Source of the DNA: Peribacillus sp. FSL P2-0133
Lineage (GTDB): Bacteria > Bacillota > Bacilli > Bacillales > DSM-1321
Direction: 5' to 3'
NCBI RefSeq assembly: GCF_037975445.1
Contig: NZ_CP150254.1
Location: forward strand, 5,516,001 to 5,580,000
Length of the DNA stretch: 64,000 nt
In this document: in pieces, positions 41,398-43,558 of the stretch
How positions within the stretch are numbered: position 1 is the first letter of the stretch
Layout: the number at the start of each line of letters is the position of its first letter
Position numbers and translations under genes: made by a program
Notes under the pieces: model-generated
What the model was told of the DNA's origin: nothing
What the model saw: the letters and a program-made list of their open reading frames with translations, nothing else
Databases searched by the model: none

Positions 41398-41630
41398 GGA
41401 CCATTTTAGCATTTATTTAAAGTATGATAAAACACGAAATTCCTCCATATTTAGGCATTACCACTCATTATTATCTAATTAATCCTTATATACAGGGATT
41501 CCCAGAAGAAAATATAACTATAGGAATAATAACGAAAATTTTTTTGTTCATTATTTTTTCCCTTTATCATGAAAATCACGTTTTAACTAATGAGAAATGG
41601 GTAAATAAAAAAAAGCAAAGGAGAGACATC

Positions 41631-41774
41631 ATGAAATCCGATAGCAATAAACAACACTTTAAATTTTTTGAAAGAACAAATAACGCTAAACCAAGTGAAC
41701 GGAAACAAATGAGCGATTTCATCAAAAAGAAGATGAATGCTCAACACTCTCATTTAAATGGTAAAAACTCATGA
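41631..41774 (+). CDS. Small hydrophilic protein of unknown function (47 aa)
   Basis: ATG at 41631 stands behind AAAGGAGAGA, a strong ribosome site, and the frame ends in a terminator hairpin. The 47-aa product is basic and polar (FERTNNAKPSERKQMSDFIK and onward), without membrane segment, signal peptide or cysteine, probably helical in its second half. A longer in-frame reading from 41424 has no ribosome site. Not recognised. Confidence 0.6.
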   Translation: MKSDSNKQHFKFFERTNNAKPSERKQMSDFIKKKMNAQHSHLNGKNS

Positions 41775-41802: not shown

Positions 41803-42117
41803 TTAAAATGCGATTTCATTTCCCTGAAGGTTGTGCTTTACACATTTCTTGATACCGATTACATTCAAAAAATGTTTAATTTTCTTCATCGAGGTTGCCT
41901 GATATTCATCTACAATGGAAAACTCTCTAATATAAGCGATTTTTTCTTGTATATCTGTATCTATATGATCTTGGCTGTATTCTTTTTGATCTGATTTTTT
42001 GCATGTGTACACCACAGCTTCACCAATATTCCTGGTTGCCTTATCAAAATAAAAAGAAAACACAATGGCACATTCATCATCGTAAAAAGAGGGTTGAACT
42101 TTCATATTAATATCCAT
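41803..42117 (-). CDS. Hypothetical protein (104 aa)
   Basis: Not recognised. Small cytoplasmic-looking protein, acidic and Tyr/Lys rich, with FYDDECAIVFSFYFDKATRN near the start and no membrane segment. A ribosome site (GAGAGGTG) precedes the ATG at 42117. The codon use and good ribosome site support a real gene. It is located next to the peptide/regulator pair but has no evident link to it. Confidence 0.6.
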   Translation of the reverse strand: MDINMKVQPSFYDDECAIVFSFYFDKATRNIGEAVVYTCKKSDQKEYSQDHIDTDIQEKIAYIREFSIVDEYQATSMKKIKHFLNVIGIKKCVKHNLQGNEIAF

Positions 42118-42296
42118 CGTTAAACTTACACCTCTCTCCGTTTTGTTATTTACACTATAACAAAATCATTAAAAGGAAATAGGCGTTACAAACTACGCTC
42201 ACGTTTCTTCCGCACCTAACAAATGGACTTTACACTCCCCATTCATAGATAATTATAACTACAGGAATATGCGTAAAAGAATAATCATTTAATAAT

Positions 42297-42326
42297 AATA
42301 AAAAAACATCTTCTAATGAAGATGCT
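42297..42326 (-). terminator. Terminator of the signalling-peptide gene
   Basis: Minus-strand stem GCATCTTC / GAAGATGT with a four-base loop followed by seven T, about 30 bp after the stop of the peptide gene. Confidence 0.85.
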
Positions 42327-42354
42327 TGAATGATTGATAGGGAAGCTTCAGTAC

Positions 42355-42468
42355 TTATTTATATAAACCTGGAAGTTCTGCGTAAAGGCCTGGTAATTCG
42401 CTTGGGACAATAACAAAAGCAGCGATGATAAGAAAAGATACGACTAATGCTTTAGTACTTTTTTTCAT
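42355..42468 (-). CDS. PapR-like signalling pro-peptide with two tandem pheromone repeats (37 aa)
   Basis: Short gene with a strong ribosome site (AAAAGGAGGA) before ATG at 42468 and its own terminator. Residues 1-22 form a basic-then-hydrophobic export signal (MKKSTKALVVSFLIIAAFVI). The remainder is two copies of a heptapeptide, SELPGLY (23-29) and AELPGLY (30-36), with a final Lys. The pattern [A/S]-[D/E]-L-P-x-x-[F/Y] resembles the active PapR heptapeptides of the B. cereus group (for example ADLPFEF). The gene is divergent from a PlcR-type regulator 196 bp away. It is best explained as an exported, re-imported pheromone. It is too short for automatic gene callers in many settings. Confidence 0.75.
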   Translation of the reverse strand: MKKSTKALVVSFLIIAAFVIVPSELPGLYAELPGLYK

Positions 42469-42500
42469 AGGTCATTCCTCCTTTTCTTTTAAAAAAATAT

Positions 42501-42540
42501 TGGTTAAAATAGAAAATAATTCTATAGTTATATTTAACCA
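42501..42540. promoter_or_regulatory. Nested dyad, probable operator of the peptide gene
   Basis: An outer inverted repeat TGGTTAAA (42501-42508) / TTTAACCA (42533-42540) encloses a 17-bp palindrome ATAGAA-AATAA-TTCTAT (42509-42525). It is 30-70 bp upstream of the peptide start. It is not an exact PlcR box (TATGNAN4TNCATA) but has similar size and AT-rich symmetry. Confidence 0.55.
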
Positions 42541-42585
42541 CACTTCTTAAAACCATAAATTTCGACTAAAGATTCTATTTAAACC

Positions 42586-42600
42586 GTTCAGGACCTGTAC
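42586..42600. promoter_or_regulatory. Second dyad upstream of the PlcR-type regulator gene
   Basis: GTTCAGGACCTGTAC is a 15-bp interrupted palindrome (six of seven arm positions pair), 65 bp before the regulator start. Possible autoregulatory site. Confidence 0.35.
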
Positions 42601-42664
42601 ATACCGCTTTCACCGATTTTTCATGACAAAATATAACTCTAGGCATATTTTAAGGAGAATCAAA

Positions 42665-43558
42665 ATGGATTTTTTTGCAGTTGGACAAAAGATCAAAGAG
42701 CTACGTAAACAAATCGGGCTTTCCCAGGAAGAGTTGGCATCCGGTATTTGTACACAAGCACAGATCAGCAAGATTGAAAAAGGCGATGTCTATCCATATG
42801 CATCCACCCTCTACTTAATTTCCCAACGTTTAGGCGTTGATGTGAACTATTTTTTCGATATTGGAATGACCCCTAGGCTGGATTACGTTGAAGAAGTGAT
42901 TTATCAATTAAAAATAGCCAGAAGAACCCGAAATTATGAGGAAATGCAGCAAATTGTAAAGGCTGAGGAAAACAGTCCCCTATTTCTTCAGAATAAAAAG
43001 AATCATCAATTGATTCTTTGGCACAAGGGAATATACGAATATGAAAAAAATAAAGATTTAGATAAAGCCATAGAATTCATTAATCAGGCCATCGCCATTA
43101 CTCATACGACCGACAAAATATATTCGGAACGGGAGCTTGAAATCTTAAGCAGCCTTGGTGTAATGTATGTTGCCGAAGAACAGTACGAAAATGCATTCGC
43201 CTTGTTAAGGAAAGCTTTAGATCACTTGAAAGCCCTACCCTTTTTGACGGATAAAACGCTAAAGACACGCCTATCCTATAATTTTGGCAGAGTGTTAACA
43301 CGCCTGGTCCGATATGAAGAGTCCATTGCCTGCTGCCAAGATGCCATAAAGTGGTGCCTCGAACATGATCAATTATATGCTTTAGCTGATTTACACTACC
43401 ATTTAGGTTACAATTTTGAACTCATAGGTAACTTTGAAGAGGCAAAAGAGTACTTGGAAAAGTCAGCGTTTCTATTCAATTTACAAAAGAATCATACCTT
43501 TGTTACATTCATAAACAAAAAGTTAGACAGTTGGAAGAATGAAATGAAAATAAATTAA
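42665..43558 (+). CDS. PlcR-type (RNPP family) HTH-TPR quorum-sensing regulator
   Basis: 297-aa transcriptional regulator. An Xre-type HTH at residues 5-60 (IKELRKQIGLSQEELASG, QAQISKIEKGDVYPYASTL) is followed by five or so TPR-like helical pairs (about 75-290), for example HKGIYEYEKNKDLDKAIEFI, SSLGVMYVAEEQYENAFALL and HYHLGYNFELIGNFEEAKEY. This layout is that of PlcR/NprR/Rgg proteins, which bind a short re-imported peptide in the TPR groove. Length and HTH resemble PlcR most. ATG at 42665 follows TAAGGAGAA; the ORF from 42623 adds residues without a site. The divergent peptide gene is its presumed ligand source. Confidence 0.85.
   Translation: MDFFAVGQKIKELRKQIGLSQEELASGICTQAQISKIEKGDVYPYASTLYLISQRLGVDVNYFFDIGMTPRLDYVEEVIYQLKIARRTRNYEEMQQIVKAEENSPLFLQNKKNHQLILWHKGIYEYEKNKDLDKAIEFINQAIAITHTTDKIYSERELEILSSLGVMYVAEEQYENAFALLRKALDHLKALPFLTDKTLKTRLSYNFGRVLTRLVRYEESIACCQDAIKWCLEHDQLYALADLHYHLGYNFELIGNFEEAKEYLEKSAFLFNLQKNHTFVTFINKKLDSWKNEMKIN

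Follow-up and report, generated by a model that had tools for sequence, protein, structure and literature searches.

Does the short minus-strand gene lying head to head with an HTH–TPR regulator gene encode the signal which this regulator reads, and if so, where does the pair act? We analyzed the whole stretch of 64,000 nucleotides, here called the window, which belongs to a genome of 5.81 Mb with Peribacillus frigoritolerans, P. simplex, P. butanolivorans and further Peribacillus or Bacillus species as near relatives. We consider it very probable that the genes at 42355-42468 and 42665-43558 form a PlcR-type RNPP quorum-sensing system that acts at a TATAACTNTAGGMATA box and controls its own signal and, in this lineage, a probable importer. 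The pair comprises the following features.

42355-42468, minus strand: putative pheromone propeptide gene, 37 codons, with predicted export signal, two ELPGLY and a final Lys
42382-42399, minus strand: pheromone copy 1, ELPGLY, GAA TTA CCA GGC CTT TAC
42361-42378, minus strand: pheromone copy 2, ELPGLY, GAA CTT CCA GGT TTA TAT
42304-42327, minus strand: intrinsic terminator 3′ of the propeptide gene, from a consensus scan
42665-43558, plus strand: PlcR-like receptor gene, HTH and TPR, 297 aa, assigned from Pfam, the PlcR sequence match and the fold model

The receptor and the propeptide gene

The original prediction described a 37-codon minus-strand gene with a strong ribosome site and its own terminator, separated by 196 bp from a divergent gene for an HTH–TPR protein of PlcR size. 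The small gene could be confirmed in these respects: its product (ATG start, 37 aa) is MKKSTKALVVSFLIIAAFVIVPSELPGLYAELPGLYK, the ATG is preceded by AAGGAGG, the terminator forms a stem–loop of 10 stem pairs followed by a T-run (42327-42304, minus), and we measured the same distance of 196 bp. Within a 2-kb region, both strands together contain four terminator-like sites against a shuffle mean of 1.0. The propeptide combines a basic start and a hydrophobic stretch with the ribosome site and a conserved place beside the receptor, and from the composition only we infer that it is exported by the Sec pathway. Reading by eye, we saw no AxA-type signal-peptidase site close before the repeats of the window.

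The receptor likely starts at ATG 42665, which has AAGGAGA ahead of it and gives the MDF start found in most relatives; for these reasons the in-frame ATG at 42623 was disfavoured. The size and type of the protein are as predicted. Pfam HTH_3 and RNPP_C are over cut-off (RNPP_C with 50.7 bits vs. 26.5), TPR families are above cut-off too, and 297 aa is inside the 250-500 aa of RNPP/RRNPPA receptors. PlcR is the nearest solved protein both by sequence (2qfc, E 2.1e-13 over residues 6-286, nearly full length) and by fold, the AlphaFold2 model (mean pLDDT 91.9) having its best Foldseek E-value among 350,542 PDB chains with the PlcR–PapR7–DNA complex 3u3w (E 6.8e-12). Identity to PlcR is only about 22% in the alignment, and in a quick tree PlcR, represented by a partial stretch, sits on a branch of 2.6, paired with another long branch. 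The genome also contains a PlcR-like paralogue (3177719-3178573) which is 31% identical and beside which the filters used did not find an LP-type propeptide.

Conservation of the pair and of the pheromone unit

A receptor orthologue of at least 57% identity is present in 32 of the 36 genus genomes (own genome counted), and in all 32 a divergent propeptide gene lies beside it, one with a broken frame. The orthologue is absent from the other four, with no match at 1e-25 in G002 and G003 and 38% identity at best in G027 and G035. On the level of the order, 160 of the 397 genomes drawn gave a receptor match at 1e-40 or better. Our census covers 130 receptors with flanks, selected from the match lists and not comprising all matches, and its propeptide labels were corrected by hand. 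The propeptide gene is divergent in 73 cases, downstream on the same strand in 13 and downstream on the opposite strand in 6, and none was found in 38. Above 348 bits, each of the 52 receptors is accompanied by a head-to-head propeptide gene. This gene is intact in 51; L013 has a frame broken near the start codon but retains residues 2-37 with 100% identity. Loss of the small gene beside orthologous regulators, or loss of its repeats in relatives, would have refuted the original prediction. Neither is the case: the gene accompanies each of the 52 receptors, and the ELP repeats persist, with the letters after ELP shifting with the receptor lineage.

On a quick tree of 107 rows (106 receptors and PlcR; 24 rows judged, though not measured, to be close to others were excluded) the layout changes 12 times compared with 44.3 times with shuffled labels, and near-copies favour such clustering. 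A mobile-element origin was rejected, as the phage records (50,697 searched at E 1e-15) gave no match and 12 plasmid records contained nothing closer than relatives of under 60% identity. As a separate observation, six PlcR-like receptor genes stand in a row in L129 (1-9417) and five in L130 (1-7576); an LP-type propeptide was not found in these arrays by the filters used, and they are candidates for orphan or eavesdropping receptors.

In the 52 loci the propeptide carries, at or near its C-terminus, at least one unit of the form [DE]LPxx(x)[Y/F/H/L]. The letters after LP vary between lineages and the copies inside one gene stay alike. The units seen beside receptors of Peribacillus and its family include ELPGLY, ELPGVY/H, ELPSVF, ELPSVY, ELPSLF, ELPPML, ELPTQF, ELPTLF, ELPSEY, ELPPVF and ELPLMH. 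Copy number ranges from 1 to 14, with two ELPPML copies in L028, four copies in L023 and L103, five in L077, L079 and L106, six in L098, nine in L099 and 14 in L094. The last is the longest array seen, a 236-aa propeptide frame upstream of the receptor on the opposite strand with 14 ELPTMY units, one peptide in six DNA forms.

The two ELPGLY copies of the window differ at 6 of 18 nucleotides, all synonymous, and at 0 of 6 residues. In a simulation with the window copies the peptide remained unchanged in only 5 of 40,000 random draws of six substitutions (1.25e-4). Since the copies differ only synonymously, both are probably maintained by selection. In most multi-copy genes the copies likewise differ by synonymous changes only, and of the 12 gene lineages put through the simulation, 11 have copies that all encode the same core. 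The simulation gave 0 of 40,000 for L024 and for L025; its support was weaker, with values of up to 0.24, for genes whose neighbouring copies are only one to three bases apart. Two findings speak against such maintenance as a general rule: L095 and L096 each have copies identical in DNA, as recent duplication explains, and L023, L131, L053, L055 and L076 each include one or two deviating units. L054 has two DLP stretches unlike each other.

Within the near clade the position ahead of ELP is not conserved, being occupied by S, N or T in the first copy and by A in the second, and L023 and L025 have their hexapeptides joined directly, with no residues in between. The unit is therefore probably a hexapeptide, with ELPGLY common to both copies of the window. 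The suggestion that SELPGLY and AELPGLY are two heptapeptides differing in activity is unlikely in view of these two observations, and we rejected them as two signals. The copies could still be starting to diverge into two separate signals, as has been proposed for Phr peptides (PMC5199041). Besides the different flanks, three ELPGVH next to one ELPGVY in L023 and the one or two deviating units in each of four other arrays (L131, L053, L055, L076) would fit this. However, the core hexapeptides of the window are identical despite their diverged codons, as are those of most multi-copy genes examined, and we regard such a divergence as improbable.

Two further arrangements were noted. L131 has, besides a single-unit ELPSIH propeptide gene at 196 bp, a second propeptide-like gene about 412 bp upstream of the receptor on the opposite strand, with eight ELPPIH and one ELPSIH. 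A further PlcR-like lineage, likewise occurring in Peribacillus, is represented by L053, L055, L074 and L076; here the propeptide gene follows the receptor gene on the same strand, and the arrays are 10 GLP(A/V)QH, 7 DIPSL(H/Y), 6 EMPTQH and 6 E(M/L)PTRH.

Small exported peptides whose role is not known are common, and the small protein might be a secreted antimicrobial or structural peptide while the receptor binds some other ligand. Against this, its place beside an RNPP receptor is constant, its core is akin to the PapR heptapeptide ADLPFEF (PMC6568020), and the letters after ELP follow the receptor lineages. We hold this explanation to be very unlikely and retain the reading of the small protein as the precursor of the signal. 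A hint only, drawn from aligned sequences, of a receptor–ligand contact comes from the glutamate of PapR, which touches Lys89, Gln237 and Tyr275 of PlcR (PMC6568020). Of 55 divergent-type receptors, 3 have Lys in the aligned column 89, and each of their pheromones carries Glu at the matching position; in five further systems with a Glu-bearing pheromone the column is Met or His (Fisher p 0.002, with rows that are not independent).

The box and its predicted targets

The second group of features concerns a putative operator and the small genes near it.

42630-42649, plus strand: box AATATAACTCTAGGCATATT, 15 bp ahead of the receptor ATG, with the 16-bp core at 163 bp from the ATG of the propeptide gene
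42515-42534, minus strand: box-like element AATATAACTATAGAATTATT at the propeptide promoter
42252-42271, plus strand: weaker box ATTATAACTACAGGAATATG, 134 bp upstream of where the 104-aa gene starts
41511-41530, plus strand: box AATATAACTATAGGAATAAT, 100 bp upstream of the 47-aa gene
41803-42117, minus strand: conserved partner gene, 104 aa, present in 47 of the 52 close loci
41631-41774, plus strand: small gene, 47 aa, whose C-terminal RK(Q/N)M-like motif recurs in relatives

The gap alignment revealed the 16-bp box TATAACTNTAGGMATA or a close variant ahead of the receptor in all 52 loci. The exact core has 79 matches in the 36 genus genomes against 3 for the reversed pattern, and these 79 lie either within about 1.7 kb upstream of the receptor (61) or upstream of OppD (18). 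When 2,928 random 260-bp pieces of the window (locus excluded) were searched, the best match in each had at least three mismatches. The 20-bp form of the box has two exact matches in the own genome, both inside the locus.

That the receptor recognises this box is inferred; there are no binding data. The box could instead be the site of another regulator or a shared promoter element, with the receptor acting elsewhere. The propeptide-side element AATATAACTATAGAATTATT resembles a −10 region and may be merely that of the propeptide promoter, and test data on the specificity of the receptor HTH are lacking. A common promoter element, however, would be expected everywhere, and the exact core is found in 31 of the 32 genomes with an orthologue (in G009 the receptor-side box is one letter off) and not once in the four genus genomes without it. 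We judge this alternative to be unlikely and continue with the box as the inferred site of the receptor.

A wide regulon in the own genome was rejected, the counts of near-match boxes being close to the reversed control. At up to one mismatch the 16-mer occurs at five places (three in the locus, one at OppD, one elsewhere) compared with three for the control. The fifth, a one-mismatch box (2674284-2674303), lies 76 bp before a gene of the secreted endonuclease/exonuclease/phosphatase family, and given these counts it remains unproven. For the 20-mer at up to two mismatches there are 16 places vs. 12 in the control, so that weak boxes cannot be distinguished from chance.

The 18 exact cores before OppD, all inspected individually, lie 126-127 bp upstream of this first gene of an oligopeptide-permease operon in the order D-F-B-C-A, of which Opp4A and Opp4B pass the NCBIfam cut-offs and Opp4C fails. 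With the one-mismatch boxes of G001, G013 and G017 included, the box precedes OppD in every one of the 21 genomes belonging to the ELPGLY and ELPSVF groups. It is absent in nine of the other 15 genus genomes, these nine having an OppD relative at 1e-140 (seven with the receptor, two without it), and the remaining six gave no match for OppD at this threshold. Import control is therefore not general. In the lineage of the window, to judge from the position of the box, the quorum-sensing receptor may control the permease that imports its own signal.

The partner gene, of about 105 codons in relatives, was found as 44 distinct proteins and additionally in L022, L030 and L079, and not found in L028, L033, L045, L046 and L087; in L086 it is on the other side of the receptor. 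In the 14 relatives inspected the box core lies 123-135 bp before it. The protein has no Pfam family over cut-off and PHROGs matches no better than 0.009, and the model of the 104-aa protein (pLDDT 77.5) shows a weak GNAT-like fold with Foldseek E-values of 2.3e-3 or worse. The distance between box and 47-aa gene is variable in relatives, 68-159 bp where the gene was found.

These distances bear on the direction of control. The receptor might be mainly a repressor at the box, so that the pheromone relieves repression rather than switching on activation, and binding only 15 bp before the receptor ATG, by the ribosome site, would indeed block expression. However, the boxes 126-127 bp before the permease and 123-135 bp before the 105-aa genes leave room for an activator, and PlcR is an activator (PMC2464732). 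Repression is thus possible but appears the weaker proposition, and activation is the outcome that we infer.

The best reading is a compact autoinducing circuit which controls its own signal and, in one lineage, a probable importer. What the sequences show is the conserved pair, selection acting on its pheromone copies, and the box with the sites at which it occurs. From this we propose that the signal sequence would direct export of the 37-aa propeptide and that extracellular cleavage would release two ELPGLY molecules per precursor, perhaps also forms with an extra residue. The peptide would then be re-imported, in the lineage of the window most likely through the Opp4-type permease with the box-bearing operon, and bind in the TPR groove of the receptor. 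The peptide-bound receptor is inferred to act at the TATAACTNTAGGMATA box, where it would probably raise the levels of the propeptide, the importer and the 105-aa and 47-aa proteins, with feedback on the receptor gene because of the box 15 bp before its ATG. Export, cleavage, binding, box recognition and import by the permease are all inferred, and the absence of binding, processing and expression data speaks against this reading. More tentatively, and with some doubt, we suggest a closed circuit in which one type of operator serves the signal, the receptor, the importer, two small proteins and little else, and in which signal strength is set by a copy number of 1-14, the copies being kept alike by selection.

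Comparison with known systems

Tandem copies in RNPP propeptides, including those of the PlcR type, are already published, with up to six copies and with 3 of 15 large PlcR-type propeptides containing repeats (PMC9765709); the duplication itself is not new. Multi-copy Phr propeptides are known (PMC5199041), and tandem Phr precursors are cleaved by extracellular proteases (PMC11343458). The Peribacillus type shares with the multi-copy Phr, NprX, AimP and PlcR-type propeptides the presence of several pheromone units per precursor. It differs from them in units which are mostly alike with diverged codons and number up to 14 (L094), and in the divergent layout, the near-constant spacing and the operator-like box. 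RRNPP_detector delivered 34 high-confidence receptor clusters with gene orientation among the properties (PMC10075063), and the Peribacillus pair may be inside its PlcR cluster or data set; Peribacillus is not named in the main text of this paper, supplements and figures being outside our scope. In the literature searched, which excluded supplements and most subscription papers, we found no account of a divergent layout at near-constant spacing, nor of the box, of the partner genes, of a link to the permease or of the motif strings. The system would extend PlcR-type language beyond the B. cereus group: pheromones are predicted for dozens of genomes, as are an operator and its targets, and signal dosage by copy number and receptor–pheromone coevolution would become testable in environmental soil bacilli.

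The original prediction had called the locus an RNPP pair with a duplicated ligand and a divergent layout unlike that of B. cereus, and the 52 conserved pairs, the PlcR match and the two ELPGLY copies bear this out. In the B. cereus group papR is located downstream of plcR on the same strand, whereas the Peribacillus propeptide gene is divergent, in the window 196 bp upstream of the receptor, and has 1-14 copies. In Bacillales systems the pheromone is stated to be downstream (PMC9765709). PlcR–PapR and the Peribacillus system have in common an HTH–TPR receptor of the same size and fold, a small propeptide, predicted to be exported in Peribacillus, and a pheromone with an LP core and an aromatic end (ELPGLY in the window, ADLPFEF in PapR; PMC6568020). 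Both boxes are 16 bp long with TAT and ATA ends in the same register. From the PlcR consensus TATGnAnnnnTnCATA (PMC2464732) the Peribacillus box TATAACTNTAGGMATA departs at positions 4, 6 and 11, and in 17 of the 52 loci also at 13. A change of G4 to A leaves 1% activity of the PlcR box (PMC2464732), and having A at this position, the Peribacillus box is not a PlcR box. The PlcR regulon is scattered and comprises 45 genes (PMC2464732), whereas the exact boxes in the 36 genus genomes are confined to the locus and one permease operon. In B. thuringiensis production of the PapR-importing permease is positively controlled by CodY (PMC4701985); control of the permease by the receptor itself would, if true, be a different wiring.
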